64,000 nucleotides of DNA from Mycolicibacterium sp. TY81 (GTDB lineage Bacteria > Actinomycetota > Actinomycetes > Mycobacteriales > Mycobacteriaceae), in the NCBI RefSeq assembly GCF_018326285.1, contig NZ_AP023362.1, forward strand, positions 3,720,001 through 3,784,000, given 5' to 3'. Position numbers and translations under genes: made by a program. Below the pieces are notes generated by a model. It was not told the origin of the DNA. It searched no databases and saw only the letters and a program-made list of their open reading frames with translations. How positions within the stretch are numbered: the first letter of the stretch is position 1; each line of letters starts with the position of its first letter. Shown piece after piece: positions 3,721 through 24,055 of the stretch.

Positions 3721-3731
3721 CTAATATATCA
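3721..3731. promoter_or_regulatory. Operator-like motif TGATATATTAG upstream of betB, in the 299-bp gap before it
   Basis: CTAATATATCA on the plus strand (TGATATATTAG read towards betB). The same 11-mer or its perfect 10-bp palindrome occurs at 11246, 12894, 13731 and 24045, each beside a unit of the betaine pathway. A separate palindrome CTGATCAG follows at 3736-3743. The rest of the 3513-3811 gap shows no gene. Probable binding site of one of the FCD-GntR regulators (inference). Confidence 0.6.
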
Positions 3732-3811
3732 CTAGCTGATCAGTAATGATGTGTTTCGAGATTCTCATCCGACTCATTTTTTGCGGCCCGCTGCGCGGCA
3801 TGCGGGAGACG

Positions 3812-5719
3812 TCATCTGGCCTTCCTCGGCGTCGATCCCGGCTGCCCGCGTCTGACGAGTTCGGCACCGGAATTCATGTGCGCGACGCGTCCCATGCGGC
3901 GCTGGACGTCGGCGATCTCCTTGACGGTCTGCTCGATCGTGCTGCGGTCGATGGGTGAGATCTCGTCGAGGTCGATGATGTCGTCGGGACGCTGCCCCGC
4001 CTCGATCTGGCGCAACTGGTGTTCCAGCCGGAGCAGCTGGAGCGCGTCGAACGCTTCGATCAGCCGGCTCGCGGAGCGGTCGGTGAGCACCTCCGACCCG
4101 GCGGCAACGCGGAGCCGGTCGACGGTGTGCAACTCCGGGGATCCGACGCTGAGCGAGGCCCACCTCGCGACATTGACGATCGGCAGCAAGCCGCGGCCCT
4201 TGATGTCGAACTTCTCGTCACGCCCGATGATCCGGTCCCGCACCGAGAGCAGGCGCGCTCGGCGCGAGAGCGAATCCTGCAGCAGCAGTTCGACGGTCGC
4301 GGGATGCCGATTGAAATCGCGGAAGACGCGCGCGGGCTCGGGCAACGCCGGGTCGCCGAAGATCGGCCGGGCGTCCACCAGGAGCGAGGCCATGATGGTG
4401 CCCTGATTCTGCTGAGGGTTGGTGAGCCAGCCCTGCGCCGCCTCTCGCCACTGCGAATCGGTACGCGAGAACCCCGGGTGCGACGGGAACGCATGATGAG
4501 CGTCGACGCCGATGCCACAGAGCTGCAGCACCTCCCCCACGACGCTGAATGCTTCGCGGTAGCGCGGGATTTGGTCCTCGTACGAATCCGCGAACGTCAC
4601 CGCGGCATCGACATCGGACGAGGGCACCGCTTCGCGCCGGCCGATGCTGCCGAGTGAGAGCCAGGTGAAGGCATCGATCGACAGATCGTTGAATTCCTCG
4701 TGGTCGAAGACCAGGAAGATCGCGCGACGGGTGATCGAAGCGATCAGCGCCGAATGGACGGCGATCACCCGGTCGGCCGTCAGCCCGCGCGCCAGGATGT
4801 CGGCAAGCATCGCCGGCACCCGGCGCGCGTGTGTGATCAGCCCATCGATGCTGCAGGCCTGCCGGATCTGTGCGTTCAGGCTGACACCGGCGGTGGTGGG
4901 CGCGAGCATGAAATCACGTTCCCCGACCGCGCCTTTCAGGCGACCGTCGTCTCCGGTGACGAGCAGGAACGAGACGCCGTGATCGAGCAGCATGATCAGG
5001 GCGTCAGCAGACGACATACTCGCCGGTGCCGTGATCGCGGGATAGTCCATCACCGCATTCGCGGGCGATTCCCGCGGCAGACCTTCCCCGATCACCTTGC
5101 GGCGCAAGGCTTCATCTGTCACCAGGCCGAAGTGACCGGTACCGGTGTCGACGGCGGCGTACGGCAGGCCCAGCTCGGTCATGCGCGCCGCGAGCGCCGT
5201 CACCGATTCGTCGGCCCGCACGACGAGCGGGTCGCGGTAGACCAGATCCGACAGCAGTGTGTACCGCGGCTGAGCGGCCGTGAGCCCGCGCACGTGCGCG
5301 ATCTCGTCGGCCAGGAAACGCGCGCCGCTGCGGGACGCGAACGCGGGAAGGACGATCCCGGACGGCAGGTTCGCGACGATGACCTTGGTCTTCGCCTCGA
5401 TCCGCGGGCCGACCGGCCGCCCCGCGAGTGCGGAGGTGTATCCGATTGGCGCGCCACGCGTGAACTTGTCGGCAGGCCCCTCACCGATGCGTTCCGGATC
5501 GAACCAGAGATCGATCTCTCCCGACATCACCAGTCCGATGCTCGTCGGCATCGTGGCGAAGGCATCCAGAATGAGGTCGCCCGGCTGGTACTCCGCGATC
5601 TGCGCAGCAGCCACCGCGCCGGCGCGCTCGGCCGGACTCAGTGCATCGAACGGTGGGCAGTGCGCCAGCAGTTCGGCGAGTTCGGCCAGTTCCGCCTCGG
5701 TCCCGGTCTCGGTCGACAT
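3812..5719 (-). CDS. cNMP-binding/CBS/DUF294 putative nucleotidyltransferase (signal-transduction protein)
   Basis: 635 residues in the order seen in DUF294 proteins. An N-terminal cyclic-nucleotide-binding-like beta-roll (about 15-140) is followed by a pair of CBS domains (about 155-275). Next is a nucleotidyltransferase-like domain with GSIGRREAVPSSDVDAAV (the GS...R.E...SD.D metal-site signature), then a C-terminal helical DUF294_C region. Such proteins are thought to regulate transport or metabolism in response to adenylates; substrate unknown. ATG at 5719 is preceded by GGAGAGGA; the frame is open upstream but without better support. It starts 23 bp after the phosphoesterase stop and so probably shares its transcript and that of the MFS transporter. 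Confidence 0.75.
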   Translation of the reverse strand: MSTETGTEAELAELAELLAHCPPFDALSPAERAGAVAAAQIAEYQPGDLILDAFATMPTSIGLVMSGEIDLWFDPERIGEGPADKFTRGAPIGYTSALAGRPVGPRIEAKTKVIVANLPSGIVLPAFASRSGARFLADEIAHVRGLTAAQPRYTLLSDLVYRDPLVVRADESVTALAARMTELGLPYAAVDTGTGHFGLVTDEALRRKVIGEGLPRESPANAVMDYPAITAPASMSSADALIMLLDHGVSFLLVTGDDGRLKGAVGERDFMLAPTTAGVSLNAQIRQACSIDGLITHARRVPAMLADILARGLTADRVIAVHSALIASITRRAIFLVFDHEEFNDLSIDAFTWLSLGSIGRREAVPSSDVDAAVTFADSYEDQIPRYREAFSVVGEVLQLCGIGVDAHHAFPSHPGFSRTDSQWREAAQGWLTNPQQNQGTIMASLLVDARPIFGDPALPEPARVFRDFNRHPATVELLLQDSLSRRARLLSVRDRIIGRDEKFDIKGRGLLPIVNVARWASLSVGSPELHTVDRLRVAAGSEVLTDRSASRLIEAFDALQLLRLEHQLRQIEAGQRPDDIIDLDEISPIDRSTIEQTVKEIADVQRRMGRVAHMNSGAELVRRGQPGSTPRKAR

Positions 5720-5742
5720 GCCGCAGTCCTCTCCGGAGTCGC

Positions 5743-6537
5743 TCACCCGGCGGTGGGCCGGGAGCCGGTCGTGACGACGAAGGCGCCCCACTCCGGGGTC
5801 GCCTCGACGAGGTGGCCGGGATCGATGCCGATGAGACGACCGCCCGGGAAGCGGGTCACCTCATGGTGCAGTCGCGCATCATAGGTGGTTGCCGGATGGT
5901 CGGACGTACCGTGCGAGCCACTGTGGCCGTGCACCTGACTGAACGGGAGCGTCGTGCCTTCCCACCCGGGCACGACCTCCTCTGTGCGGCTGGCCCATAA
6001 CGGACCCGCCATCGGATTCGGTGGGCCGAGCATGGCGCCGCCGCCGTACAGCGTCGGGCACCCCGTGCGGGCCAGGCTGTTGATCCGGCGCGCCGCCTGC
6101 CGCGCGGTATCGGGGGCGAGAAGGTGCTCGCGCCAGAACTTCTCGGTGACCCCGGCATGCGTCACCAGGAAATCCTCTTCGTCGGTCTCGACGGCGACCG
6201 CAGCGTGCAGCTTGCCGTCGGCCCACCACTTCTTCAGGATGCGCTGTTCCAGGTAACCGATCCGGTCCTCCCACAGGAAACTGTTCGGCCGTAGATACAG
6301 AGCCTCATGATTGCCCACAAGCTGAACCCACTGCCCGGGATACGTGTTCAGGTAGTAGTCGACCAGACGAACGACACCCTCGGAGTCCGGGCCCCGGTGC
6401 ACCAGATCCCCCACCTGAATCACGACGAGATCATCGGGCAACACCCCGGTTTCGGAGACACCGAGGGACCGCAGCTCGCGCCGCAGCTCCTCGATGTGCC
6501 CACCGACATCGCCGATCACGGCCACCCGCATCGTCAT
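5743..6537 (-). CDS. PPP-family metallophosphoesterase (calcineurin-like)
   Basis: 264 residues with the metallophosphoesterase motif series in order: GDVGGH near the N-terminus, GDLVHRGPDS, GNHE, THAGV and HGHS. These supply the Asp, Asn and His ligands of the two-metal centre. The GDxxxRG form of motif 2 is that of protein phosphatase/diadenosine-tetraphosphatase (PPP) enzymes, so a phosphoprotein or nucleotide polyphosphate substrate is likely, but which cannot be told. The start at 6537 (MTMRVAVIG) has GGGAGGA 11 bases upstream; a second ATG two codons in is possible. It lies between an MFS transporter and a DUF294 protein on the same strand with short gaps. Confidence 0.75.
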   Translation of the reverse strand: MTMRVAVIGDVGGHIEELRRELRSLGVSETGVLPDDLVVIQVGDLVHRGPDSEGVVRLVDYYLNTYPGQWVQLVGNHEALYLRPNSFLWEDRIGYLEQRILKKWWADGKLHAAVAVETDEEDFLVTHAGVTEKFWREHLLAPDTARQAARRINSLARTGCPTLYGGGAMLGPPNPMAGPLWASRTEEVVPGWEGTTLPFSQVHGHSGSHGTSDHPATTYDARLHHEVTRFPGGRLIGIDPGHLVEATPEWGAFVVTTGSRPTAG

Positions 6538-8216: not shown

Positions 8217-9344
8217 CTAGTCGGCGAGCTTGTTGCGCAGCCAGTCATGGAAGTGCCCGAGGTGGTGTTCGCTGGGCACGAGCACACCGCCGTCGCGATA
8301 GACGCGGGAACTCATGGCGGGCTGGCACCGCTCGCACGCGTCGAAGTCCTGTTGGTTGACGCGGTGGAACAGCTCCACCGACTTGCTCACGTCGCGCCCG
8401 GATTCGACCACGCCGGGCAGGTACAGCCAGTCGCATTCGACGATGGTGTGGTCCGCCGCCATGGGGAACATCCGGTGGATGATGACGTGATCGGGCACCA
8501 GGTTGACGAACACCTGCGGACGTACCGTGATCGCGTAGTAGCGCCGGTCCTGATCGGCGGTGACGCCGGGGATGTGCTCGAAACCCTCTGAGCCATCGAT
8601 GGTGAAGCCGGCGATGTCGGCACCGAATTCCGCACCGTGGCCGACGTAGAACTGGGCGGCGTAGCCGTCGGCGAACTCCGGCAGCACCTCGGTGAGTTCG
8701 GGATGGATGGTGGCGCAGTGGTAGCACTCCATGAAGTTCTCGATGATGAGCTTCCAGTTGGCCTTGACGTCGTAGACGATGCGGCGACCGAGGCTGAGAT
8801 TGGCCACCGTGTAGTGGTCGATCGACTCGACATCGCCGAGTCGATCGACGATCTCCTGCATGACGGTGTCTTCGAACGACGGTGGCTCGTCGGCCAGGCA
8901 CACCCAGACATAGCCGAGCCATTCCCGGACCGAGATCTTGCGCAGGCCGTATTCGACGCGGTCGATGTCGGGCATCTTGGTCAGGTTCGGCGCGGCGACG
9001 AGCTTGCCGTCGAGATCGTAAGTCCATGCGTGATAAGGACATTGGAACGCGCGCTTGACCTCGCCGCTGTCCTCGGTGCACAGCTGCGCGCCGCGATGCC
9101 GGCACAGGTTGAAGAACGCGTTGATGTCACCCTTGCGCGATCTGGTCACCAGAACGCTCTCGCGGCCGACCTGGACGGTCTTGAACGCGCCGGGCTTATC
9201 CAGATCCGCGGCGCGCACAACGCAGAACCACATGGTCTCGAAGATCTTCTCCTGCTCGAGGGCGAAGACCTCCGGATCGGTGTAGTAATGCCCTGCCAGG
9301 GGGGAAATGAGGCTTTCCGGCAGGCTCGGCACGGTGGCGGTCAT
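8217..9344 (-). CDS. gbcA: Rieske non-heme iron oxygenase, likely glycine betaine monooxygenase (demethylase) alpha subunit
   Basis: Predicted to hydroxylate an N-methyl of glycine betaine, releasing formaldehyde and dimethylglycine. 375 residues. The Rieske [2Fe-2S] ligands are Cys81-x-His83 and Cys102-x2-His105 (CRHRG and CPYHAW). The mononuclear iron site is in ENFMECYHCATIHPE, with His209 and His214. The frame opens at 9365, but ATG 9344 has AAGGAG four bases upstream. It sits 55 bp after the FAD reductase gene, and two hairpins follow. Quaternary-amine Rieske demethylases (GbcA, stachydrine demethylase, carnitine oxygenase) are hard to separate by eye. The assignment to betaine comes from the flanking choline-to-sarcosine genes. 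Confidence 0.68.
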   Translation of the reverse strand: MTATVPSLPESLISPLAGHYYTDPEVFALEQEKIFETMWFCVVRAADLDKPGAFKTVQVGRESVLVTRSRKGDINAFFNLCRHRGAQLCTEDSGEVKRAFQCPYHAWTYDLDGKLVAAPNLTKMPDIDRVEYGLRKISVREWLGYVWVCLADEPPSFEDTVMQEIVDRLGDVESIDHYTVANLSLGRRIVYDVKANWKLIIENFMECYHCATIHPELTEVLPEFADGYAAQFYVGHGAEFGADIAGFTIDGSEGFEHIPGVTADQDRRYYAITVRPQVFVNLVPDHVIIHRMFPMAADHTIVECDWLYLPGVVESGRDVSKSVELFHRVNQQDFDACERCQPAMSSRVYRDGGVLVPSEHHLGHFHDWLRNKLAD

Positions 9345-9399
9345 TGAACTCCTTTGCGGTGTCATGTCGTGAGTTTTATTGGGCTGCAGGAATTTCGGC

Positions 9400-10599
9400 C
9401 TAGACCGCGGCGGGCGTGGGCATCAGCTGGCGGCGCCACCGGGTGAACAGCCGGGGCTGATCGATACCGAGGACCGCGACCAGGCGGCCGTCGCGGCGAT
9501 ACGTGGCCAGCAGGCAACGGTCCTCGCAGCTGCCCTCTTCGATGGTGATCTCGTCGTCGGGACGGGCGAGGCCGGCGAACTGGATGCGCGAACCGTATTG
9601 GTCGGACCAGAAATACGGCGGCTTCACCGTCGCCTCCTGATGGGCGCCGCCTGCGAGCAACGAGGCGACAGCCAGCGCGGGACGCTCCAAAGCACCGGTC
9701 CAGTGTTCGACACGGTGGTGGGCATTGGTGGCCGCGTCGAGCCACGCCGCACAGTCTCCGACGGCGACGACGTTCGGCAGGGCCGTCTGCCCGCGGGTGC
9801 CGCACAGCACGCCGTTGCCGAGCTCCAGACCGCTGTCACGCAGCCAGTCGATGTTGGGCACACCGCCGATACCCACGACGACGACATCAGCCGGCAGGTG
9901 GCGTCCGTCGGTGAGGTCGACGCCGGCCACTCGTCGCACACCGCTGGGGGTGCGCAGTGCGCGCTCCTCGCCGACCAGTCCGGCGACGCCGACACCACAG
10001 ATCAACGTCGTTCCGTTGGCGGCGTGGGCGCCTGCGACCACGCCGCCGAGCCACTTACCGAGCTGCAGGTGCAGCGGCGTCGGGGCGGCTTCGACGACGG
10101 TGACGTCCAGGCCCAGCTTGCGGGCCGTCGAGGCGACTTCGGCCCCGATGAATCCGGCGCCGATGACGACCAGCCGAGCGCCCGGCACCAGTTCGGCCCG
10201 CAACGCCACGGCGTCGTCGATGGTGCGGATGACGTGCACGCCGGCCATGTCCTCGCAGCCGGGCCAGCGGCGGGCGCGGGAGCCGGTCGCGATCACCACG
10301 CCGTCGGCATCGATGCGCGTCCCGTCCGCGAGTTCGATTGCGCCGGAACGACTGTCGAGCTTGGCCGCGGCGACGCCCAGTCGCCAGTCCGCCTGCAGAT
10401 CGTCGTCGTCGGATTCCAGGGCGAGGTCGGCTTCGGAGACGGTGCCGCAGAGGAATTCCTTCGACAGCGGCGGGCGGTCGTACGGCCGCTGCGCCTCGTC
10501 GCCGATGACGGTCAGCCGGCCGTCGAAGCCCTGCGCCCGCAGCGCCCTCGCGGCCGACAGGCCCGCGAGCGACGCCCCGACGATCGCGACGTGCTTCAC
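9400..10599 (-). CDS. FAD-dependent ferredoxin reductase (putidaredoxin/BphA4-type)
   Basis: 399 residues. It has an FAD-binding GASLAGLSAARAL motif at the N-terminus, an NAD(P)-binding GAGFIGAEVAS motif in the middle, and a C-terminal FAD motif VAVGDCAAW, as in oxygenase-coupled ferredoxin reductases. It would pass electrons from NAD(P)H to the Rieske ferredoxin encoded just upstream. The GTG start at 10599 overlaps the ferredoxin stop in a GTGA junction, so the two are translationally coupled. Downstream is the Rieske oxygenase; the three together make a complete three-component oxygenase system. Confidence 0.85.
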   Translation of the reverse strand: MKHVAIVGASLAGLSAARALRAQGFDGRLTVIGDEAQRPYDRPPLSKEFLCGTVSEADLALESDDDDLQADWRLGVAAAKLDSRSGAIELADGTRIDADGVVIATGSRARRWPGCEDMAGVHVIRTIDDAVALRAELVPGARLVVIGAGFIGAEVASTARKLGLDVTVVEAAPTPLHLQLGKWLGGVVAGAHAANGTTLICGVGVAGLVGEERALRTPSGVRRVAGVDLTDGRHLPADVVVVGIGGVPNIDWLRDSGLELGNGVLCGTRGQTALPNVVAVGDCAAWLDAATNAHHRVEHWTGALERPALAVASLLAGGAHQEATVKPPYFWSDQYGSRIQFAGLARPDDEITIEEGSCEDRCLLATYRRDGRLVAVLGIDQPRLFTRWRRQLMPTPAAV

Positions 10600-10958
10600 T
10601 GCGTTCCCGCCGCGCCGAGTCGAGCCCGGATGTCCGGGGGCAGGTTGGGTTTCTCGGTGCTCAGTTCGACGTGGATGACGCCGTCGGAGATCACGACGGT
10701 GTGCGTGCGTACCGGCAGCTTGGCCGGCGGCGCGTCGACCGCTCCGGTGCGGAGGTTGAACCGGGAGGCGTGCAGCGGGCACTCGACGTCGCACCCTTCC
10801 AGCCAGCCGTCGGCCAGGGACGCGTCCTGGTGCGAACAGGTGTCGTCGATGGCGAACACCTCGCCGTCCTCGGTGTGGAAGACCGCGATGGGCGGGTCGG
10901 TTGCCACGCGCCGAGCCTCGCCGGGCGGGAGTTCGGAGAGCGGACAAATCTCAAGCAT
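10596..10958 (-). CDS. Rieske-type [2Fe-2S] ferredoxin
   Basis: 120 residues, a single Rieske domain. Cluster ligands are CSH (C-x-H) and CPLH (C-x2-H), 18 residues apart, as in BphF-type ferredoxins. It carries electrons from the adjacent FAD reductase to the oxygenase. It is the first gene of the ferredoxin-reductase-oxygenase operon. Its 355-bp upstream region holds two direct ATTAYGCAAC repeats and one TGATATATTAG motif, suggesting dual control by the IclR and GntR regulators of the island. Confidence 0.88.
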   Translation of the reverse strand: MLEICPLSELPPGEARRVATDPPIAVFHTEDGEVFAIDDTCSHQDASLADGWLEGCDVECPLHASRFNLRTGAVDAPPAKLPVRTHTVVISDGVIHVELSTEKPNLPPDIRARLGAAGTQ

Positions 10959-11245: not shown

Positions 11246-11256
11246 TGATATATTAG
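11246..11256. promoter_or_regulatory. Operator-like motif TGATATATTAG upstream of the ferredoxin-reductase-oxygenase operon
   Basis: Exact copy of the 11-mer at 13731-13741 and, inverted, at 3721 and 24045. It lies about 290 bp before the ferredoxin start and directly after the iclR terminator hairpin. A further half-site, CTGATAT, follows at 11268-11274. Confidence 0.55.
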
Positions 11257-11314: not shown

Positions 11315-12097
11315 TCAGCGCCGATAGCCCATGCGGCGGCTGACATCATCGGCCGCCGCGACCACGGTCGGCGCGATCTCCCGGGCGCGCTCCTCGGTGA
11401 GCCGATACGCCGGGCCGGAGACGCTCAGCGCGGCGATCACCACACCGAGGTGATCCCGAATCGGCGCGGCGACGGCGTTGAGCCCGGGCTCGAGCTCCTC
11501 CAACGACACCACGTAGCCATTGCGGGGCACGTCCTGCAACTGCGCTTCCAGTCGCTCGACCGACGTGATGGTGCCTTCGGTGAACCGCTGCAGCCCGGCC
11601 GCCGCCAACAGGTCCCGACGGGCATCGGCAGCCATGAAGGCCAGCAGCACTTTGCCGCTCGACGTCGCGTGCAACGGCGTGAGCTCCCCCACCCAGTTGT
11701 GCGTGCTGACCGCCGCGGGTCCCCGCGCCTGGTCCACGTTCACCGCGTACTCCGATCGCAGCACCGCGATGTTGACGGTCTCGCCGACCTCGGCTGCCAG
11801 TCGCTCGCAGATCTCCCGGCCCTGCCGCGTGACGTCGAGCCGGCCCGACACCGCGTTGGCCAGCCGCAGGATGCCGAAGCCGAGCCGGTACTTGCCGCGC
11901 TCGAAAGCCTGCTCGACGAGTTCCCGATCCTCGAGCGCCGCGAGCAGGCGCGAGACCGTCGACTTGTGCACCCCGATGTCCGACGCCAGCTCGGTGACTC
12001 CGGCTTCACCCCGGCGCGCGAGGAGATCCAGGACAGCGAGCGCGCGGTCGACGGACTGCACGCCCCCATTGCCGGAATCAACGCCGTTGTTGCTCAT
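11315..12097 (-). CDS. IclR-family transcriptional regulator
   Basis: 260 residues: an N-terminal winged helix-turn-helix (about 14-70; VTELASDIGVHKSTVSRLLA is the recognition region), then the IclR effector-binding domain (about 85-255) with the family's SSGKVLLAF and GYVVSLEELEPG stretches. It probably senses a small pathway metabolite. An ATTACGCAAC motif overlaps its own ATG and also occurs twice before the ferredoxin operon downstream, so those genes are likely targets. It is flanked on the upstream side by two GntR genes on the same strand. Confidence 0.88.
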   Translation of the reverse strand: MSNNGVDSGNGGVQSVDRALAVLDLLARRGEAGVTELASDIGVHKSTVSRLLAALEDRELVEQAFERGKYRLGFGILRLANAVSGRLDVTRQGREICERLAAEVGETVNIAVLRSEYAVNVDQARGPAAVSTHNWVGELTPLHATSSGKVLLAFMAADARRDLLAAAGLQRFTEGTITSVERLEAQLQDVPRNGYVVSLEELEPGLNAVAAPIRDHLGVVIAALSVSGPAYRLTEERAREIAPTVVAAADDVSRRMGYRR

Positions 12098-12893: not shown

Positions 12894-12903
12894 TGATATA
12901 TCA
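12894..12903. promoter_or_regulatory. Perfect palindrome TGATATATCA upstream of GntR paralogue 1
   Basis: 10-bp perfect dyad, the symmetric form of the TGATATATTAG motif seen at four other places in the island. Its location before a GntR gene suggests autoregulation. Confidence 0.55.
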
Positions 12904-13657: not shown

Positions 13658-13691
13658 CGCCAATCCTCCAAAAGTGTCTGCGGCCCAGCTC

Positions 13692-13720
13692 TTGACGCGG
13701 CCACCAGCTGATCTTAATCT
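13692..13720 (+). promoter_or_regulatory. Sigma-70-type promoter of glyA-soxBDAG
   Basis: TTGACG (-35, 13692-13697), a 17-bp spacer, TAATCT (-10, 13715-13720). The expected start of transcription is near 13727, placing the TGATATATTAG operator at about +5 to +15. The sdaA promoter has the same layout. Confidence 0.6.
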
Positions 13721-13730: not shown

Positions 13731-13741
13731 TGATATATTAG
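13731..13741. promoter_or_regulatory. Operator-like motif TGATATATTAG just downstream of the glyA promoter
   Basis: Ten bases after the predicted -10 element, a position where a bound repressor would block initiation. AGCTGATCTTAAT (13706-13718) and AGCTGATATATTA (13728-13740) also form a degenerate direct repeat over the -10. Confidence 0.62.
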
Positions 13742-13774
13742 TCCAGAACACACTGCAATGTCAGAAAGGTGTAC

Positions 13775-15091: not shown

Positions 15092-16326
15092 CCGCACCGA
15101 CGACCCCACCGGGCGCACACCTGCCCGACCATCCGGAATTCCTCTGGCGCACACCGGAACCCAAGAAGTCCTACGACGTCGTCATCGTCGGCGGCGGCGG
15201 ACACGGCCTGGCGACCGCGCACTACCTCGCCAAGAACCACGGCATCACCAATGTCGCGGTGCTGGAACGCGGCTGGCTGGCCGGCGGCAACATGGCCCGC
15301 AACACCACCCTGATCCGGTCCAACTACCTGTGGGACGAGAGCGCCCGGATCTACGAGCACGCCCTGAAACTGTGGGAGGGGCTGGAAGAGGACCTGGACT
15401 ACCCGATCCTGTTCAGCCAGCGCGGTGTGCTCAACCTGGCGCACAGCCTGCAGGACGTCCGCGACAGCGTGCGGCGCGTCGAGGCCAACAAGCTCAACGG
15501 CATCGACGCCGAGTGGGTGGAACCCAAAGAGGTCAAGGACCTGTGCCCGATCGTCAACATTTCCAGTGACATTCGCTATCCGGTGCTGGGTGCCACCTAT
15601 CAGCCCCGCGCCGGCATCGCCAAGCACGACTACGTCGCGTGGGGCTTCGCGCGCCGCGCCGACGAGGCCGGCATCGACATCATCCAGAACTGCGAGGTCA
15701 CCGGATTCGTCACCGACGGCGACCGGGTCACCGGGGTGCGCACCACGCGCGGCGACATCGGCGCCGGACAGGTGGCGCTGTGCGCGGCCGGGCACACCTC
15801 GACGTTGACCGACATGCTCGGCATCCGCACGCCGCTGCAGAGCCACCCGCTGCAGGCGCTGGTATCCGAACTGCTCGAGCCGGTGCATCCCACCATCGTC
15901 ATGTCGAACGCGGTGCACGTGTACGTATCTCAGGCCCACAAGGGCGAACTCGTGATGGGCGCCGGCGTCGACTCCTACAACGGCTACGGCCAGCGCGGCG
16001 CGTTCCACATCATCGAACGCCAGATGGCCGCCGCGGTGGAACTGTTCCCGGTCTTCGCCCGCGCGCACCTGCTGCGTACCTGGGCGGGCATCGTCGACGT
16101 CTGCCCCGACGCATCACCGATCGTCGGCCGCGTCGGCTACGACAACCTGTACCTCAACGCCGGTTGGGGCACAGGCGGTTTCAAAGTGACGCCCGGCATC
16201 GGCTGGTGCCTGGCCGACACCATCGCCACCGGCCGCGAACACGACTACGTCGCCCCCTTCAGCCTCGACCGGTTCGTCACCGGAGCCCTGGTCGACGAAC
16301 ACGGCGCCGCCGGCGTGGCGCACTAG
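15088..16326 (+). CDS. soxB: Sarcosine oxidase, beta subunit
   Basis: Catalytic subunit of heterotetrameric sarcosine oxidase, which demethylates sarcosine to glycine, forming methylene-THF (or formaldehyde) and H2O2. 412 residues. The FAD-binding [19 protein letters not shown] starts at residue 31. His180 in AKHDYVAWG falls where beta subunits attach FMN covalently (about His175). The C-terminal [14 protein letters not shown] flavin-contact motif is present. The GTG start overlaps the glyA stop, indicating tight coupling. Confidence 0.93.
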
Positions 16327-16341
16327 AAACCAGGAGCCGCA

Positions 16342-16617
16342 ATGCAACTCATCGACTGCCCGTGGTGCGGGCCACGTGAGGAAACCGAATTTCACTACGG
16401 CGGTCAGGCGCACGTCGCCTACCCCGAGGACCCGCAGGCACTGACCGACGAACAGTGGGCGCACTACGTGTTCTTCCGCGCCAACCCCAAGGGGCTGTTC
16501 GCCGAACGCTGGACCCACAGCGCCGGCTGCCGCCGCTGGTTCAATGCCATCCGCGACACCGCAACCTACCGATTCGACCGTGTCTACCGACTCGACGAGC
16601 AGAGGCCGACAATCTGA
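16342..16617 (+). CDS. soxD: Sarcosine oxidase, delta subunit
   Basis: 91 residues, the small zinc-binding subunit. Cys6 and Cys9 (IDCPWCG), a His in the HVAYP region and Cys63 (SAGCRRWFN) provide the expected three-Cys/one-His zinc site. It lies 15 bp after soxB and its stop codon overlaps the soxA start (TGATG). The gene order beta-delta-alpha-gamma is the normal one for soxBDAG operons. Confidence 0.92.
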   Translation: MQLIDCPWCGPREETEFHYGGQAHVAYPEDPQALTDEQWAHYVFFRANPKGLFAERWTHSAGCRRWFNAIRDTATYRFDRVYRLDEQRPTI

Positions 16618-19466
16618 TGAGCACCGCACTGCGCACCGAAACCGGCGGCCGTATCGACCGGGATACGGTGCACACCTTCACTTTCAACGACCGGGAGTAC
16701 ACCGGCCACGCCGGTGACACTCTCGCGTCGGCGCTGCTGGCGAACGGCGTGCATCACGTCACCTCGAGCATCAAGATGGGCCGGCCCCGCGGCTTCACCT
16801 CGGCGTGGGCCGAGGACACCGGCGGCCTCGTCCAGATCGAATATCCCTTCCCCGAACCCATGCTGCTCGCCACCACCGTCGAGCTGTACGACGGGCTCGT
16901 CGCACGCGGCCTCCCGGGACAGGGCCGGCTCGCCGACGTCGCCGACCCCGCGCGCTACGACTCGACCCACGTGCACGCCGACGTCCTGGTCGCCGGGGCC
17001 GGCCCGGCCGGCCTGGCAGCCGCGCTGACGGCGGCCCGGGCCGGTGCCCGCGTCGTGCTGATCGACGAACAGAGCGAGGCCGGTGGCGCCCTGTTGGGCA
17101 GCACCGACACCATCGCCGGCCGCCCGGCACTGCAGTGGGTTGCCGACGCGGTCGCCGAACTCGCGACCTACCCCGACGTGCTGCACCTGCAGCGCACCAC
17201 GGCATTCGGCCACTACGACGACGGCTTCGTCCTTGCGCTGCAACGGCGTACCGATCACCTCGGCGCCGCTGCTCCGGCAGCGGTGAGCCGGCAGCGGGTC
17301 TGGCGGATCCGGGCCCGGCACGTCATCGTCGCCGCCGGCGCCCACGAGCGGCCGGTGGTGTTCACCGACAACGACCGGCCCGGCATCATGCTGGCCGCCG
17401 GCGCCCGCACCTTCCTGCACCGGTACGGCGTCAAGGTCGGCGAGCGGGCCGTCGTGTTCACCACCAACGACAGCGCCTATCAGGCCGCGCTGGACCTGCA
17501 CGACGCCGGAGTGGCGATCACCGCGATCGTCGATGCCCGGGACGCGGTCGCCACAGATCTGCGCGCGGCGTGCGATTCCCGTGACATCGAACTGCGCACC
17601 GGATCGGTCGTCAGTGGCAGTCGCGGTGAGAACCGGGTCAGCGCCGCCATCGTCACCGGTACGGACGGCGCGTCCGACGAACTGGCGTGTGACGTGCTGC
17701 TGGTCAGCGGCGGCTGGAATCCCGCGGTCCACCTGTTCAGTCAGGTGCGCGGGCCGCTGCGCTACGACGCCGCCCTCGGCGCGTTCGTTCCGGGTGCCGA
17801 GCTCGATGAGGTGAGCGTCGCCGGCTCGGCCGCAGGCACGTTCAGCCTGCCCGGTTGCCTGCGCGACGGTCGCGCCGCCGCCACCCGCGCCCTCGCCGGC
17901 CTCGGGTTCACAGCAGCCTCCGAACCACTTGCCGGAGAATCGGATTCGATCCGGGCCGCGGGCGCACCCGCTGTACTGTGGCGCGTTCCCGACGCCGACG
18001 GCACAACGCAGTTCGTCGACGTCCAGCGCGACGCGACGGTGGCGGACCTGGTCCGCGCGGTCGGCGCGGGCATGCGCTCGATGGAACACATCAAGCGCTA
18101 CACCACCATCGGCACCGCGCACGACCAGGGCAAGACCTCTGGCGTCGTCGCCTCGGGCATCACCGCCGAACTGCTCGGTGTCCCCGTCGCCGATCTCGGC
18201 GTCACCACCTTCCGGCCGCCGTACACGCCGGTCGCGTTCGCGGCGCTGGCCGGTCGCAACCGTGGCCGGATGTTCGACCCGGAACGTGTTACCGCGGTGC
18301 ATGATTGGCACGTGGCCCGCGGCGCGGTGTTCGAGGACGTCGGCCAGTGGAAGCGTCCGCGTTACTACCCGCTGCCCGGTGAAGACATGGAGACCGCGGT
18401 GCTGCGCGAATGCGCCGCTGCCCGAACGGGAGTCGGCATCCTCGACGGCTCGACGCTGGGCAAGATCGACGTCCAGGGTCCCGATGCCGGCGCCTTCCTC
18501 GACCTGCTCTACACGAACCTGATGAGCACGCTCAAGGTCGGCATGCTGCGGTACGGCGTGATGTGCGGCGTCGACGGCATGGTGATCGACGACGGCACCG
18601 TCATGCGCCTGGCCGACGACCGCTTCCAGGTCTTCACGACCACGGGCGGCGCGGCCCGCATCCTGGACTGGATGGAGGAATGGCTGCAGACCGAGTGGCC
18701 GCACCTGCGCGTGCGCCTCACCTCCGTCACCGAGCAGTGGCACACCTTCCCGGTGGTCGGCCCGCGCTCGCGGGACGTCATCGGCGCGGTGTTCCCGGGC
18801 GTCGACGTCAGCAACGAGGCATTCCCGTTCATGGCCTGGCGCGACACCCAGCTCGACGGCGTGCACGTCCGGATCGGCCGGGTCAGCTTCTCCGGCGAGC
18901 TGGCGTACGAGGTCAACGTCATGGGCTGGTACGCAACGGCGGTGTGGGAGAGGCTGATCGAGGCCGGTGCACCCTTCGGCATCACGCCCTACGGCACCGA
19001 GACCATGCACGTGCTGCGCGCCGAGAAGGGCTACCCGATCATCGGGCAGGACACCGACGGCACCGTCACGCCGCAGGACCTCGGGATGAACTGGGTCGTC
19101 TCGAAGAAGAAGCCCGACTTCGTCGGCAAGCGCTCGTTCACACGCGCCGAGAACCTCAATCCGCTGCGCAAGCAGTTCGTCGGACTCCTTCCGGTCGATG
19201 CGCGGACCGTGCTGCCCGAAGGCGCCCAGATCATCGAGACCCCGGCCGACGGCACGCTGCCGCCGCCACCGGTCCCCATGCTCGGCCATGTCACGTCGAG
19301 CTACCGCAGCGCCGAGCTGGGGCGCCCGTTCGCCCTGGCATTGGTCAAGGGCGGCCACGCCCGCATCGGAGACACCCTCACCGTCCCCGTGGACGGTGCC
19401 CTGGTGGCCGTCGAGGTCACCGGTTCCGTCCTCGTCGATCCCGAAGGAGCACGCCGCGATGGCTGA
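16617..19466 (+). CDS. soxA: Sarcosine oxidase, alpha subunit
   Basis: 949 residues. The N-terminal region holds a ferredoxin-like fold for amine oxidation partners (FNDREYTGHAGDTLASALLANG). A nucleotide-binding domain (GAGPAGLAAALTAARAG at about 126-142) for NAD follows, and the C-terminal half is a GcvT-like domain that binds tetrahydrofolate (GAFLDLLYTNLMSTLKVGM; GELAYEVNV). It channels the methylene group to THF. ATG 16617 overlaps the soxD stop. The frame is open further upstream through soxD, but that part is not coding in this frame. Confidence 0.93.
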   Translation: MSTALRTETGGRIDRDTVHTFTFNDREYTGHAGDTLASALLANGVHHVTSSIKMGRPRGFTSAWAEDTGGLVQIEYPFPEPMLLATTVELYDGLVARGLPGQGRLADVADPARYDSTHVHADVLVAGAGPAGLAAALTAARAGARVVLIDEQSEAGGALLGSTDTIAGRPALQWVADAVAELATYPDVLHLQRTTAFGHYDDGFVLALQRRTDHLGAAAPAAVSRQRVWRIRARHVIVAAGAHERPVVFTDNDRPGIMLAAGARTFLHRYGVKVGERAVVFTTNDSAYQAALDLHDAGVAITAIVDARDAVATDLRAACDSRDIELRTGSVVSGSRGENRVSAAIVTGTDGASDELACDVLLVSGGWNPAVHLFSQVRGPLRYDAALGAFVPGAELDEVSVAGSAAGTFSLPGCLRDGRAAATRALAGLGFTAASEPLAGESDSIRAAGAPAVLWRVPDADGTTQFVDVQRDATVADLVRAVGAGMRSMEHIKRYTTIGTAHDQGKTSGVVASGITAELLGVPVADLGVTTFRPPYTPVAFAALAGRNRGRMFDPERVTAVHDWHVARGAVFEDVGQWKRPRYYPLPGEDMETAVLRECAAARTGVGILDGSTLGKIDVQGPDAGAFLDLLYTNLMSTLKVGMLRYGVMCGVDGMVIDDGTVMRLADDRFQVFTTTGGAARILDWMEEWLQTEWPHLRVRLTSVTEQWHTFPVVGPRSRDVIGAVFPGVDVSNEAFPFMAWRDTQLDGVHVRIGRVSFSGELAYEVNVMGWYATAVWERLIEAGAPFGITPYGTETMHVLRAEKGYPIIGQDTDGTVTPQDLGMNWVVSKKKPDFVGKRSFTRAENLNPLRKQFVGLLPVDARTVLPEGAQIIETPADGTLPPPPVPMLGHVTSSYRSAELGRPFALALVKGGHARIGDTLTVPVDGALVAVEVTGSVLVDPEGARRDG

Positions 19467-20043
19467 AACCCTCACTCGCCGTAGCCCGTTGCAGAGCTGG
19501 GCCGCCCAGTTCGCGGCGACCGCACCGGCAGCACTCCTCACCGAGGAGCCGTTCACCACGATGGTCGATCTGTGGGTCGACCCGGAAGGAGCCGGCGGCG
19601 CCGAAGCTGCCCGGCTCCTCGGCCTGACCGCGTTGCCGACCACACCGGGCACGTGCGTCACCGGTCCCGATTCGTCGGTGATCTGGTTCGGCCCGCAGGA
19701 GTGGCTGGTGACGTCGACGCAGCGTGGCGGCGAGGCACTCGAGGCCGAGCTGCACGACGCGGTCGCCGCGGCCGGCGGTGCTGCCGTCGATGTGTCCGCG
19801 CAGCGCACCATCGTGCGGCTGCGTGGGGCGCACGCCCGCGATGTGCTGGCCAAGGGCTGCTCACTGGACCTGCACCCGCGGGTCTTCGGCCCGGGCGCCG
19901 CGGCTCAGACGATGCTGGCACTGGCCGCCGTCGTGCTGATTCCGTTGGACGACAAGGGCACCGACTACCGGATCATCGTCCGCTCGTCGTTCGCCGGCTA
20001 CCTCGCCGACTGGTTGATCGATGCGGTGGAGGAATTCGAGTAA
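19459..20043 (+). CDS. soxG: Sarcosine oxidase, gamma subunit
   Basis: 194 residues, overlapping soxA by 8 bases and preceded by GAAGGAG. The protein is short and GcvT-like (VIWFGPQEWLV; GAHARDVLAKGCSLDLHP), the usual pattern for SoxG. Last gene of the glyA-sox operon, followed after 8 bp by a very long perfect hairpin. Confidence 0.9.
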   Translation: MAETLTRRSPLQSWAAQFAATAPAALLTEEPFTTMVDLWVDPEGAGGAEAARLLGLTALPTTPGTCVTGPDSSVIWFGPQEWLVTSTQRGGEALEAELHDAVAAAGGAAVDVSAQRTIVRLRGAHARDVLAKGCSLDLHPRVFGPGAAAQTMLALAAVVLIPLDDKGTDYRIIVRSSFAGYLADWLIDAVEEFE

Positions 20044-20124: not shown

Positions 20125-20757
20125 TCAGTGGCCGCGGGCGATCCACTCCGCCAGGTGTGGGGCCTCGGCCCCGACCGTGGTGTGATCGCCGTGGCCGGTA
20201 TGCACCCGCGTTTCCTCCGGCAGTGTCAGGATCGAATCCCGGATGGAGTCGATGATCGTCGGGAAGTCGCTGTAGGACCGCCCCGTCGCGCCGGGCCCGC
20301 CGTTGAACAGCGTGTCCCCGGAGAACAGCGCGCCGGCCTCCGGCAGGTACAGGCACACCGAGCCCGGCGAGTGCCCGGGCGTGTGGATGACCTCGATCTC
20401 GGTGCCCGCGACACCGATGCGCTGACCGGCATCGAGATTCCAGTACTTCTCGTCGGGATGGCTTGTCTGCCAGAGCATGTCGTCGCCGGGGTGCAGCAGG
20501 ATCGGCGCGTGCAGCTCGTACGCCAGCTCCGGGGCCACCGTCACGTGGTCGTTGTGCCCGTGGGTGACGACGACCGCCACCACGTTGCGGCCGGCGACGG
20601 CGTCGACGATCTGGGGCGCCGTGTGGGCGGCGTCGACGATGACGACCTCTGAGTCATCGCCGATCACCCACACATTGTTGTCGACGTCCCACGTCCCGCC
20701 GTCGAGGCTGAAGGTCCCGGAGGTGACGACGCGGTCGATGCGGAGCTGCCCACTCAC
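20125..20757 (-). CDS. MBL-fold metallo-hydrolase coupled to mycothiol-dependent formaldehyde oxidation
   Basis: 210 residues with the metallo-beta-lactamase signature THGHNDHVT, then HTPGHSPGS and FSGDTLF, giving a glyoxalase-II-like dinuclear metal site. It overlaps mscR by four bases (ATGA), the same pairing as Rv2260/Rv2259 in M. tuberculosis. A thioester hydrolase acting on S-formylmycothiol, releasing formate and mycothiol, is the natural role (inference from the pairing). Convergent with soxG. Confidence 0.78.
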
Positions 20758-21839
20758 AGCACGACCACCGAACGCAGCACGTTGCCGGCGTGCATGGTGT
20801 GGAAGGCGTCCTCGACCTCGTCGAGCTTGATCCGCTCGGAGACGAAGCGCTCCAACGGGATTCGGCCCTGCTGGTAGAGGTCGACCAGCATCGGGAAGTC
20901 GCGCTCGGGCAGGCAGTCGCCGTACCAGGAGGACTTCAGCGATCCGCCGCGGGAGAAGAAGTCGACCAGCGGCATCTCCAGCGTCATGTCCGGGGTGGGC
21001 ACACCGACGAGGACGACGGTGCCGGCGAGGTCACGCGCGTAGAACGCCTGCTTCCAGGTTTCCGGGCGACCGACGGCGTCGATCACGACGTCGGCACCGA
21101 AGCCGCCGGTGAGCTCCTGCACCGCCTCGACGGTGTCCACGTCGGCGGCGTTGATGGTGTGGGTGGCACCGAGTTCCTTGGCCCACTCCAGCTTTCGCGG
21201 GTCCCGGTCGACCGCGATGATCTTGCCCGCGCCGGCGAGGCGGGAGCCCATGATCGCGGCGTCGCCGACGCCACCGCAGCCGATCACGGCCACCGAGTCG
21301 CCCCGGGAGACGTTGCCGGTGTTGACGGCCGCGCCGAGGCCGGCCATCACGCCGCAGCCCAGCAGGCCGACCACCGCCGGGTCGGCATTGGCGTCGACCT
21401 TGGTGCACTGCCCCGCGTGGACCAGCGTCTTGTCGGCGAACGCCCCGATGCCCAGCGCCGGTGTCAGCTCGGTGCCGTCCTCCAGCGTCATCTTCTGGGT
21501 GGCGTTGAACGTGTCGAAGCAGTACTGCGGCCGGCCGCGCTTGCACGCCCGGCACTGGCCGCACACCGCACGCCAGTTGAGGATCACGAAGTCGCCGACC
21601 GCCACCGATTCGACACCCGGGCCGACCTCTTCGACGATGCCGGCGGCCTCATGGCCGAGCAGGAACGGGTACTCGTCGTTGATGCCGCCCTCGCGGTAGG
21701 TCAGGTCCGTGTGGCAGACACCGCACGCCTGGATGTTCACCACCACTTCGTCGGGGCCGGGGTCCGGGATCACGATCGTGGTGACCTCGACCGGGGCGCC
21801 CTTGGCGCGGGCGATGACACCTCGAACTTGTTGCGGCAT
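20754..21839 (-). CDS. mscR: S-(hydroxymethyl)mycothiol dehydrogenase / S-nitrosomycothiol reductase
   Basis: Zinc-dependent class III-like alcohol dehydrogenase that oxidises the formaldehyde-mycothiol adduct with NAD. 361 residues. Visible: the catalytic zinc Cys in [13 protein letters not shown] and the [12 protein letters not shown] motif. The structural zinc cysteines are in [15 protein letters not shown], and the NAD motif is [12 protein letters not shown]. Betaine, dimethylglycine and sarcosine demethylation release formaldehyde, so its place directly between sox and dgcA is functionally sensible. Confidence 0.9.
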
Positions 21840-21886: not shown

Positions 21887-23935
21887 TCAGAGAACGAGGC
21901 AGAGCCGGAAGGCGTCGTAGATCGCGGCGTGGATGTTGCGACTGGCGACGGCGTCACCGATGCGGAACAGCTGGTAGCCGCCGTCGGCGTTGCGCACGAC
22001 GTTCTGCGGCTGCAGGTTGAGCAGCGCCTGCTGGTCGACTTCGCCGAGGTTGGTCGAGCCGGGGACCAGGCCGAAGTACAACTCGTCGGACGGCAGCGTG
22101 CCGTGTTCGACGACGACGTGGTCGACCATGCGCTGCCGGGTGGCGTGCGCATATTCGTTGTAGAGGTCCACTTCCAGCCGACCGTCCTTGCGGCGCACCC
22201 CGGTCAGGCGCTCGTTGAGCGTGACGCGCACGTCGTGCTCGGCGAACACCTTGAAGTAGCCGGGGTAGTTCACGCCGCCGACGTCGGGCGCCAATGTCCG
22301 CTCAGGGGTGACGAACTCGAGGTCGACGCCGGTCCGGGCCAGCACCTCGGCGGCATCCAATCCGGGGTGGCCGCCGTTGTCGTCGTAGAGCATGACCTCA
22401 CCGCGCGGATGCACCGCGCCGCACAGCACATCCCAGCCGTCGGTGACGAGATTGGCGCCCTCGGTGAGGAATTCGGTGTTCGGTACGCCGCCCGTGGCGA
22501 CCACGACGAGGTCGGGGTTCTCGGCCAGCACCTCGTCGACGTCGACGTAGCGATTGGTGCGGATGTCGACGCCGAGCAGCTTGCACTCGTCCAGCCGCCA
22601 CTCGATGATGCTGATCAGATCGCGCCGGCGCGGTGACGACGACGCGATCCGCACCTGCCCACCAGGCAGGTCGGAGGCCTCGAAGACCACGACGCGGTGC
22701 CCCCGCTCGCCGAGTACGCGGGCGGCTTCCAGGCCGGCCGGCCCGGCGCCGATGACCACCGCCGTCCGCGCCGGCCCGGACGCCTTGTCGACGCGGTGCG
22801 GCAGCCGGTCTTCGCGGCCGGTGGACGGGTTGTGCACGCACTTGGCGTCGCGGTTCTGGTAGATCTCGTCGAGGCAGTAGGTCGCGCCGACACAGGGGCG
22901 AATCCGATCCTCTTCGCCGGCTTGGATTTTCGCGACGATGTGCGGGTCGGCGATGTGCGCACGCGTCATGCCGACGAGGTCGAGCAGACCGTCGCGGATC
23001 GCGTGCCGGGCCGTGGCGACGTCGTTGATGCGGGAGGCATGCATGACCGGGATGCCGAGTTCCTTCTTGACCTGCCCGGCGAACGACAGGTGCGGCGCGA
23101 CCGGGGTCCCCATCGGCGGGATGACGCGCGACAGCGCCTCGTCACTGGCCATGTAGCCCTTGATCACGCTGATGAAGTCGATGCCCTCGGGTACCAGGCG
23201 CTTGGCGATCTCGATGCCGTCCTCGTACTGCAGCCCGCCGGGCAGGTCCTCGTCGAGTGACATCCGGATGCCGACCGCGAAGTCCGGCCCGGCGGCCTCG
23301 CGGACCGCGCGAATCACCCTGAGCGGGAAGCGAAGTCGATCTTCCATGCTGCCCATGCCGTACTCGTCGTCGCGGTGGTTGGTCAGCGGCGACCAGAAGG
23401 CGTCGAGCAGATGGGTGTAGGCCTCGAGTTCGATGCCGTCCAGGCCGGCCGCGCGGCACCGCGCGGTGGCGTCGGCGTAGGCCTTGACGATGCGGTCCAT
23501 GTCCCATTCCTCGGCCACCTTGGGGAAGGACCGGTGGGCGGGTTCGCGGATGGCCGACGGGTACACCACAGGCAGCCAGTCGCCGTCGTAGTTGCTGGTG
23601 CGCCGGCCCAGGTGCGTGATCTGGCACATGACGGCGGCGCCGTGTTCGTGGACGCCGTAGGCCAGCTCGCTGAGCCAGGGCACGATCTCGTCCTTGTAGA
23701 CGTGCAGATTGCCGAAGGCAGAGGGGCTGTCGGGCGCGACGACCGCGGAGCCGCCCATCATGGTCAGCGAGATGCCGCCCTTGGCCTTCTCCTCGTGGTA
23801 GAGCCGGTAACGGCGCTTGGGCATGCCATCTTCGGTGTAGGACGGCTCGTGCGATGTGCTCACCACGCGATTGCGCAGGGTCATGTTCTTCAGCCGGAAG
23901 GGCTGCAGGAGCGGATCGATGAGCTGATGCGCCAT
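21887..23935 (-). CDS. dgcA: DgcA-like dimethylglycine demethylase (FMN/Fe-S/FAD, dienoyl-CoA-reductase family)
   Basis: 682 residues, close to Pseudomonas DgcA. An N-terminal old-yellow-enzyme barrel (about 1-345) is followed by Cys348, Cys354 and Cys366 of an Fe-S site. A C-terminal dinucleotide-binding domain comes last (VVIGAGPAGLEAARVLGERG at about 388). The usual second cluster Cys is Ala351. ATG 23935 was chosen over a start 15 codons upstream because the protein then begins MAHQLIDPLLQPFRLKN as in the family. Proposed reaction: dimethylglycine to sarcosine plus formaldehyde. Related enzymes act on stachydrine or trimethylamine; the neighbours favour dimethylglycine. No dgcB partner is visible. 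Confidence 0.75.
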   Translation of the reverse strand: MAHQLIDPLLQPFRLKNMTLRNRVVSTSHEPSYTEDGMPKRRYRLYHEEKAKGGISLTMMGGSAVVAPDSPSAFGNLHVYKDEIVPWLSELAYGVHEHGAAVMCQITHLGRRTSNYDGDWLPVVYPSAIREPAHRSFPKVAEEWDMDRIVKAYADATARCRAAGLDGIELEAYTHLLDAFWSPLTNHRDDEYGMGSMEDRLRFPLRVIRAVREAAGPDFAVGIRMSLDEDLPGGLQYEDGIEIAKRLVPEGIDFISVIKGYMASDEALSRVIPPMGTPVAPHLSFAGQVKKELGIPVMHASRINDVATARHAIRDGLLDLVGMTRAHIADPHIVAKIQAGEEDRIRPCVGATYCLDEIYQNRDAKCVHNPSTGREDRLPHRVDKASGPARTAVVIGAGPAGLEAARVLGERGHRVVVFEASDLPGGQVRIASSSPRRRDLISIIEWRLDECKLLGVDIRTNRYVDVDEVLAENPDLVVVATGGVPNTEFLTEGANLVTDGWDVLCGAVHPRGEVMLYDDNGGHPGLDAAEVLARTGVDLEFVTPERTLAPDVGGVNYPGYFKVFAEHDVRVTLNERLTGVRRKDGRLEVDLYNEYAHATRQRMVDHVVVEHGTLPSDELYFGLVPGSTNLGEVDQQALLNLQPQNVVRNADGGYQLFRIGDAVASRNIHAAIYDAFRLCLVL

Positions 23936-24004
23936 GGGCGAGTCCGTTTCTTTCCGATGGTTCGGACGTGGTTCACACACCGTTTACGACCCCATAAGTA
24001 CCGC

Positions 24005-24033
24005 TTGACCAGGTACAAATGCTGATCTACCGT
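24005..24033 (+). promoter_or_regulatory. Sigma-70-type promoter of sdaA
   Basis: TTGACC (24005-24010), a 17-bp spacer, TACCGT (24028-24033). The predicted transcription start is near 24040, with the operator-like motif at 24045-24055 immediately after it, the same arrangement as at glyA. Confidence 0.5.
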
Positions 24034-24044
24034 ATGTGGCGTAA

Positions 24045-24055
24045 CTAATATATCA
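24045..24055. promoter_or_regulatory. Operator-like motif CTAATATATCA between dgcA and sdaA
   Basis: Inverted copy of TGATATATTAG in the 164-bp divergent region between dgcA (minus) and sdaA (plus), 11 bases after the sdaA -10. It could control both genes. Confidence 0.6.

Follow-up and report, generated by a model that had tools for sequence, protein, structure and literature searches.

A palindromic word in a sarcosine catabolism cluster of Mycolicibacterium sp. TY81 is the predicted operator of two neighbouring GntR-type regulators

The recurrence of a single AT-rich 10-mer, TGATATATYA, in a catabolic gene cluster raises the question of whether this word is an operator and, if so, which protein reads it. 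In the window (the whole 64,000-nucleotide stretch that was analysed), a pattern scan locates it at five places, referred to here as predicted operators 1–5: positions 3722–3731 (minus strand), upstream of an aldehyde dehydrogenase–permease–GMC unit; 11246–11255 (plus strand), 288 bases upstream of the start of the Rieske ferredoxin that opens a ferredoxin–reductase–oxygenase unit, and 59 bases past the iclR stop; 12894–12903, upstream of gntR1, a perfect palindrome matching on both strands; 13731–13740 (plus strand), between gntR2 and glyA; and 24046–24055 (minus strand), between a dgcA-like gene and sdaA. The five copies claimed by the first-pass annotation, including the perfect palindrome, are thus present, and each of them adjoins genes that look like part of a choline, betaine, dimethylglycine or sarcosine breakdown pathway. 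The account of one unit per site must however be corrected, since operators 4 and 5 each serve two divergent units (gntR2/glyA and dgcA-like/sdaA, respectively).

The same scan of the strain's own genome (6,467,391 bp, 4 contigs) finds the word at exactly these five places, all inside 20.3 kb, and the reversed control pattern at none. In 100 shuffles of the window the mean count is 0.00, and the probability that five uniformly placed points would all fall within 20.3 kb of the genome is about 5e-10. The genome-wide scatter of copies that had been named as contrary evidence is not seen: all five places are confined to the regulator genes and the neighbouring pathway, as expected for a local regulon. 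Allowing one mismatch from TGATATATCA adds 8 further places in this genome, none of which (0/8) has the more general form TRRTATAYYA.

Clear assignments in the cluster are those of the mycothiol-dependent formaldehyde dehydrogenase and of the serine hydroxymethyltransferase and sarcosine oxidase domains. On the plus strand, glyA (13769–15091; PF00464) is followed by the sox block (15088–20043; PF01266, PF17806, PF01571, PF04268), with soxB at 15088–16326, soxA within 16455–19466 and soxG within 19198–20043, the last two spans being containing ranges with approximate gene starts. The minus strand then carries an MBL-fold protein (20125–20757; PF00753), the S-(hydroxymethyl)mycothiol dehydrogenase (20754–21839; TIGR03451, 697.9 bits for a cut-off of 512.9) and the dgcA-like FMN oxidoreductase (21887–23980), which is of the trimethylamine/histamine dehydrogenase type according to PF00724 and solved relatives. 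The L-serine ammonia-lyase gene sdaA (24100–27200, plus strand) lies in two pieces around an insertion sequence, with positions 1–99 and 108–450 of TIGR00720 in two open reading frames and the transposase frame at 24555–25994; this splitting of sdaA is a new observation in this strain. A second SDH_alpha gene is found elsewhere in the genome (G000:C1:2213815). The genes of a sarcosine-to-pyruvate route (glyA–sox–sdaA), that is serine hydroxymethyltransferase, heterotetrameric sarcosine oxidase and serine ammonia-lyase, therefore all stand together. The remaining units, all on the minus strand, consist of a betB-like aldehyde dehydrogenase (2013–3569) with an APC permease (480–2000) downstream and a choline dehydrogenase-like GMC protein (1–428, running past the window start), the first and last being family-level matches, and of the unit at 8217–10958, with a Rieske oxygenase (8217–9365), a ferredoxin reductase (from 9400) and the Rieske ferredoxin (10596–10958). 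The label of betaine catabolism given by the first-pass annotation fits these gene families, but the curated cut-offs are not reached by the models for GbcA (225 vs 670 bits), BADH (574.2 vs 668.6) and choline dehydrogenase (373.8 vs 605).

Two regulators of the GntR family are encoded between these units, both on the minus strand: the 225-residue GntR1 (12149–12826; PF00392 56.3 bits, PF07729 73.9 bits) and GntR2 (12962–13657, the start at 13657 being a chosen ATG; PF00392 55.2 bits and PF07729 88.2 bits, scored on 12962–13663). All four scores are above the cut-offs, which gives both proteins the FadR/FCD subfamily architecture, and the recognition helix and wing are common to the two. Arg55 of the recognition helix, which from a reading of the motif rather than an alignment appears to be the counterpart of FadR Arg-45, is kept in 103 of 106 GntR proteins and replaced by Lys in the other 3; the three loci with Lys all lack the word, and 5 further wordless loci keep Arg. 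In the FCD domain, D143, H147, H191 and H213, which we take to be the metal/ligand residues, are found in 106/106 proteins. Two tandem paralogues with what looks like one reading head are a new feature here, and among the loci examined such a pair occurs only in Mycobacteriaceae and Nocardiaceae (all but two of the third-paralogue copies, with 43–45% identity, were left out before counting).

The first-pass annotation had named the FCD-GntR proteins as the natural binders, a proposal that the distribution of the word across 60 genomes of the genus favours. Where a GntR1 ortholog is present (6 genomes) there are 21 sites, vs 1 for the reversed control, while the 54 without it hold 18 vs 17, as single copies in 17 genomes; the word thus tracks the FCD-GntR gene and not the genus. 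These single copies in other mycobacteria were considered as a second regulon, which was rejected on the same count of 18 vs 17. One exception among them, genome G055, has its site 112 bp ahead of a GntR2-type gene.

Conservation extends well beyond the genus, although the rows behind these counts are related by descent and not independent. In 66 of the 80 actinobacterial gntR loci retained (the best 80 of 132 relatives), a TRRTATAYYA site immediately precedes gntR, mostly in a divergent sdaA or glyA/sox promoter, and this form with its 2-nt centre occurs at 136 places in 72/80 loci. For 29 permuted control patterns, one gave 79 matches but overlaps the motif, and the next highest gave 9. Of the 14 loci without the standard word before gntR, 2 have TAATATATGA and 5 have TGATGTACCA; the others show no clear site there. 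Counting sites within 350 bp upstream of each gene (after removal of genes below 45% identity, of matches that begin past residue 25 and of genes with under 350 bp of DNA ahead of them, filters which left no dgcA to count), gntR1 has one in 17/17 Mycobacteriaceae/Nocardiaceae loci, and in loci L006–L022 the same is true of GlyA (15/15) and GntR2 (17/17); three control patterns all gave zero. Many genera of actinobacteria have the word upstream of gntR itself, of glyA/sox and of sdaA. The Rieske ferredoxin (1/13 in L006–L022, 0/26 elsewhere) and the aldehyde dehydrogenase (1/3 and 0/5) have few such sites and are thus weaker members of the regulon. In 12 relatives' genomes, 35 of 48 places lie no more than 15 kb from the gntR-proximal site, that site included; for the other sites, 23/36 are within this distance and 13/36 are not.

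The position of the word relative to promoters is also conserved. At glyA, the promoter TTGACG-17-TAATCT (13692–13720, plus strand) ends 10 bases before operator 4, exactly as first described, and at sdaA, TTGACC-17-TACCGT (24005–24033, plus strand) ends 12 bases before operator 5; the distance of 11 given earlier for sdaA holds to the 11-mer then used but not to the 10-mer. Across actinobacterial loci, exactly 10 bases separate the end of the −10 box from the word at 33/35 glyA/soxB sites, which fits a repressor sitting over the transcription start. Fixed spacing is found at 23/45 sdaA sites, the other 22 lacking TANNNT at −17 or −18, and none was seen at the gntR-side promoters, where it was looked for; sites too near a locus end were left out of the spacing and half-site counts.

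The sites themselves, their uniqueness in the genome, the co-occurrence with gntR1, the conservation, the promoter geometry and the invariant DNA-reading residues are established here. The regulon interpretation of the first-pass annotation is well supported by genome uniqueness, GntR1 co-occurrence, conservation and fixed promoter distance. As judged from sequence, TGATATATYA (general form TRRTATAYYA) is in all likelihood the operator of the two cluster-encoded FCD-GntR regulators, acting as repressors, and the genes of catabolic type beside the five sites are very probably switched, by way of these sites, by one or both of the adjoining GntR-type proteins. When no inducer is present, a GntR dimer would sit on the palindrome which, beginning 10–12 bases after the −10 box at glyA–sox and sdaA, would cover the start of transcription and block RNA polymerase. 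With this site in the gntR promoters as well, the regulators would also restrain their own expression. Some small compound on the path from choline through betaine, dimethylglycine, sarcosine and glycine to serine could then bind the FCD pocket, with its conserved Asp-His-His-His, and free the DNA, so that demethylation, formaldehyde disposal and serine deamination would be switched on together. Binding, repression, the inducer and which paralogue acts at which site are steps that we infer within this model.

An unlikely variant keeps the sites as GntR operators but makes the protein mainly an activator, or has a single paralogue bind. GntR regulators can activate, as Corynebacterium glutamicum GntR1/GntR2, which repress some genes, do on ptsG (PMC2230225, available text), and the missing fixed spacing at gntR-side promoters would suit this role; at 33/35 glyA/soxB sites, however, the word is downstream of the −10 box, where binding should block. 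A single binder is disfavoured by the recognition helix and wing shared by both paralogues, and by L083, L085 and G055, where GntR2-type proteins alone carry the site. It is considerably less probable that the word is a promoter part, an extended −10 element (of the form TGNTATAT) read by a sigma factor. While TGATATAT resembles this element, and some sites contain a TATATT that scores like a −10 box, a separate TTG[AC]C/TANNNT pair is present at a fixed place upstream of the word in 33/35 glyA/soxB sites, the core, a palindrome, serves divergently oriented genes, and the word goes with gntR1 rather than with the genus. Binding by the IclR-type protein encoded behind gntR1 (11315–12097, minus strand; PF01614, PF09339) is less probable still: the word is upstream of iclR in 8/11 loci of L006–L022 but in 0/16 other loci, and gntR has the word in most loci, including those with no IclR relative detected within the locus. 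That an AT-rich word recurs by chance, as the single copies in genomes without GntR1 could suggest, is practically dismissed, as in the first-pass annotation, by the shuffles, the clustering of all copies in one 20-kb stretch and positions conserved across genera.

Turning to the finer structure of the predicted GntR operator, a possible third half-site, ATCA (24063–24066, plus strand), lies 11 bp beyond an identical ATCA in the right arm of operator 5, and may be a new feature of the system. A[TC]C is found at this offset in 30/45 sdaA sites and 11/35 glyA/soxB sites, and operator 1 has an ATCA box on its far side (3739–3742). An extended palindrome (AACTGATATATCAGTT) was rejected, the flank pairs of 82 distinct gntR-side sites not being clearly complementary beyond expectation (nearest pair 28 vs 37.4 expected, third pair 27 vs 21.5). 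Asymmetric TAAT/TGAT arms were likewise rejected as a heterodimer mark, TAATATATCA being found also in loci with a single GntR.

How duplicated regulators divide their work could be studied cleanly on these tandem paralogues, with their single predicted DNA specificity. Speculatively, the pair might stem from two ancient GntR lineages that have the reading head in common but differ in sensor domain, and might compete for, or heterodimerise on, one operator, so that two metabolites would be read at every promoter; with the palindrome and a third half-site lying a helical turn further into the transcribed region, a second dimer might be able to add, sharpening the switch. More broadly, the word defines by sequence a regulon that can be tested for the use of choline, betaine and sarcosine by actinobacteria, and it points to additional candidate members in related genomes, among them BCCT and ProP-like transporters and genes resembling dimethylglycine oxidase.

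A literature search found no description of this operator or regulon, nor of a regulator of actinobacterial choline/betaine/sarcosine use, and among the matches listed for papers with the exact word none concerns such a regulator by its title and the start of its abstract. The window resembles a published description of GntR operators with TKGT/ACMA boxes in its AT-rich palindrome, its GT/AC-type boxes 2 nt apart, the location of the site in a divergon and weaker extra half-boxes nearby, but its arms are mostly TGAT/ATCA or TAAT; the main text of that description mentions neither sarcosine nor betaine. An AT-rich palindrome with 2 or 3 nt between boxes, as for FadR/FCD regulators, is found here, although AT/AT often takes the place of the GT/AC boxes that the general consensus has. 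The glyA-soxBDAG-sdaA-purU cluster of Corynebacterium sp. U-96 and Arthrobacter, with its inferred conversion of sarcosine to pyruvate (PMC3534580), has the same pathway genes in the text available, and the term GntR is absent from that paper's main text. SACE_4500 of Saccharopolyspora erythraea, frameshifted in an over-producing strain (PMC3359211), is a GntR gene adjoining a sarcosine oxidase operon and a possible ortholog, for which the available part of the source gives no operator, regulon or functional data. From what is accessible of the respective sources, Bacillus thuringiensis SoxR (PMC4941409) is also a local regulator of sarcosine oxidase genes, but a Sigma54-dependent activator and no GntR protein; TmoR of Ruegeria pomeroyi (PMC13390433), which belongs to the GntR family and represses tmm, a gene of trimethylamine catabolism, shares family, predicted mode and the breakdown of methylated amines, but differs in pathway step and phylum, with neither its operator nor its domain type stated there; and C. 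glutamicum GntR1/GntR2, likened by description and not by sequence, are likewise two paralogues, redundant there on the same catabolic genes, but of a gluconate regulon. By its sequence features, the cluster is an ordinary local regulon of the FadR/FCD type, and the recurrence of the same predicted switch in related soil bacteria makes it one of a real but familiar kind.

The 10-mer TGATATATYA was found at five places in the window, as the first-pass annotation had claimed: 3722-3731 (site 1, reverse strand), 11246-11255 (site 2, forward strand), 12894-12903 (site 3, a palindrome), 13731-13740 (site 4, forward strand) and 24046-24055 (site 5, reverse strand). Shuffling the window 100 times gave 0.00 matches on average. 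These are also the only matches on either strand of the entire genome (6,467,391 bp, 4 contigs), in which the reversed pattern, used as a control, has none. All five fall within 20.3 kb (p ~5e-10 for uniformly placed points). Allowing one mismatch to TGATATATCA adds eight places in the genome, none of the general form TRRTATAYYA.

Downstream of site 1 lie genes for a betB-like aldehyde dehydrogenase, an APC permease and a choline dehydrogenase-like GMC protein. A CBS-DUF294 putative nucleotidyltransferase (3812-5791), a relative of which adjoins the aldehyde dehydrogenase gene in locus L009, separates this choline unit from the remaining cluster. Site 2 precedes the gene for a Rieske ferredoxin by 288 bases, in a unit which also contains a ferredoxin reductase and a Rieske oxygenase; among the solved relatives of this oxygenase are entries named monoxygenase/demethylase and carnitine monooxygenase. 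Site 3 is followed by gntR1 and then an iclR gene, while site 4 has gntR2 on one flank and glyA-sox on the other. On one side of site 5, a dgcA-like FMN oxidoreductase is followed by an S-(hydroxymethyl)mycothiol dehydrogenase (697.9 bits to TIGR03451, against a cut-off of 512.9) and an MBL-fold protein; sdaA lies on its opposite side. The window sdaA is interrupted by an insertion sequence (about 24412-26135) with a DDE_Tnp_1_4 transposase (24555-25994), and an IS481-family transposase (27534-28571) lies directly downstream of it; a second SDH_alpha gene is present elsewhere in the genome (G000:C1:2213815-2214612). Window proteins score below the cut-offs of the GbcA, BADH and choline dehydrogenase models. 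With substrates assigned from protein families, the genes could jointly lead from choline to pyruvate, with removal of the formaldehyde that demethylation releases.

The related pattern TRATATATYA was searched for in 60 genomes of the genus, our own included, taken from a larger group, and matched 39 places in 23 genomes (reversed control: 18 places in 16). Six genomes carry a GntR1 ortholog (at least 80% identity); they hold 21 sites and one control match, as opposed to 18 sites and 17 control matches in the other 54. The lone copies in genomes without GntR1 therefore look like background, while clusters go together with the regulator: two or more sites are present in 6/6 genomes with the ortholog and 1/54 without (Fisher p 1.4e-7, genomes treated as unrelated).

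Conservation was followed in the best 80 of 132 loci encoding GntR1 relatives, each reaching 10 kb per side. Of these, 17 belong to Mycobacteriaceae/Nocardiaceae (L006-L022); the remaining 63 are in L023-L085. Among these best 80 relatives, the nearest named ones are from Mycobacterium and Mycolicibacterium. TRRTATAYYA stands upstream of gntR in 66 loci, 64 of them GntR1-type and two GntR2-type (L083, L085). Counted within 350 bp upstream, separately for L006-L022 and L023-L085, a site accompanies gntR1 in 17/17 and 47/61, glyA in 15/15 and 8/19, and the SdaA N-part in 2/3 and 43/54 (in the second group mostly the same divergent site as gntR1); gntR2 has one in 17/17 of the first group. The counts are 8/11 and 0/16 for iclR, 2/6 and 3/5 for MscR, 2/16 and 6/34 for SoxB, 1/3 and 0/5 for ALDH, and 1/13 and 0/26 for the Rieske ferredoxin; three control patterns gave no matches for any gene in either group. 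The core of the predicted regulon is gntR, sdaA and glyA/sox, to which individual lineages seem to have added the choline and Rieske units. Sites also precede a BCCT betaine-type transporter (L007, L012) and a ProP-like transporter (L061), and adjoin DAO-GCV_T proteins resembling dimethylglycine oxidase (L010, L055). The 14 loci without the standard word before gntR have TAATATATGA in its place (L025, L033), a diverged site TGATGTACCA (L064, L074, L076, L079, L080), or other or no recognisable sites (L041, L049, L054, L070, L078, L082, L084). In the five loci with TGATGTACCA, TGCTATACTA stands 11 bases ahead of it. The whole genomes of 12 relatives contain 48 sites against 8 control matches, 35 of the 48 lying within 15 kb of a gntR-proximal site (23/36 when the gntR-proximal ones are excluded).

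Both regulators have GntR and FCD domains, and tandem gntR pairs occur in 17/80 loci (all of L006-L022) and in the window. In a tree of 108 rows, tandem GntR1 and tandem GntR2 form two supported groups. Most of the single regulators from other genera group with GntR1; two Pseudonocardia proteins have a weakly supported position close to GntR2, and the Arthrobacter placement is unsettled. Since none of the near-fixed differences between the tandem GntR1 and GntR2 groups (18 proteins each) falls in residues 45-86, the recognition helix and wing, the two are expected to recognise one and the same word. In the recognition helix, 103/106 aligned proteins retain Arg55 and three have Lys instead (L070 and L082 from Quadrisphaera, L049 from an Actinomycetales MAG). 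All three come from loci without any site, but L041, L054, L078, L080 and L084 also lack a site and retain Arg55. The three proteins with Lys may read another word. The FCD residues Asp143, His147, His191 and His213 are present in 106/106 proteins. The GntR2 copy of L098 (genome G031) has an in-frame TGA, its GntR1 copy being open, and several mycobacteria (L010-L013, L015, L099-L101) have a third paralogue, 43-45% identical to GntR2, close to the cluster.

The fixed distance between site and promoter noted in the first-pass annotation is confirmed at glyA/soxB, with offsets measured from the first base of phylogenetically non-independent sites: 33/35 have TTG[AC]C beginning at -39 or -40, 33/35 have TANNNT at -16, and the window's own promoters fit. 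At sdaA, 23/45 sites have TANNNT beginning at -17 or -18, the remainder having no promoter at that position. Bound to its site, a GntR dimer would lie over the transcription start. In 30/45 sdaA and 11/35 glyA/soxB sites there is a further A[TC]C box, beginning at +17 and so 11 bp after the corresponding box in the right arm; in the window it is found at site 5 (24063-24066) and on the far side of site 1 (3739-3742), and not at sites 2-4. Extra half-boxes are described for the FadR-type GntR subfamily in PMC4494728, whose supplement covers 36 FadR-type groups.

As far as sequence can tell, the five sites form an autoregulated FadR-type catabolic regulon, and the earlier proposal of a regulon under the cluster's own FCD-GntR proteins is upheld to that extent by the tracking of GntR1 by site clusters and the recurrence of the word before gntR. 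No description of it was found in the literature on GntR with sarcosine, betaine, dimethylglycine, serine dehydratase or the exact word, as judged from the records listed and within a coverage that included few subscription journals. The nearest leads are SACE_4500, a gene adjoining a sarcosine oxidase operon, TmoR, and the gluconate regulators of C. glutamicum, which are likewise paired.
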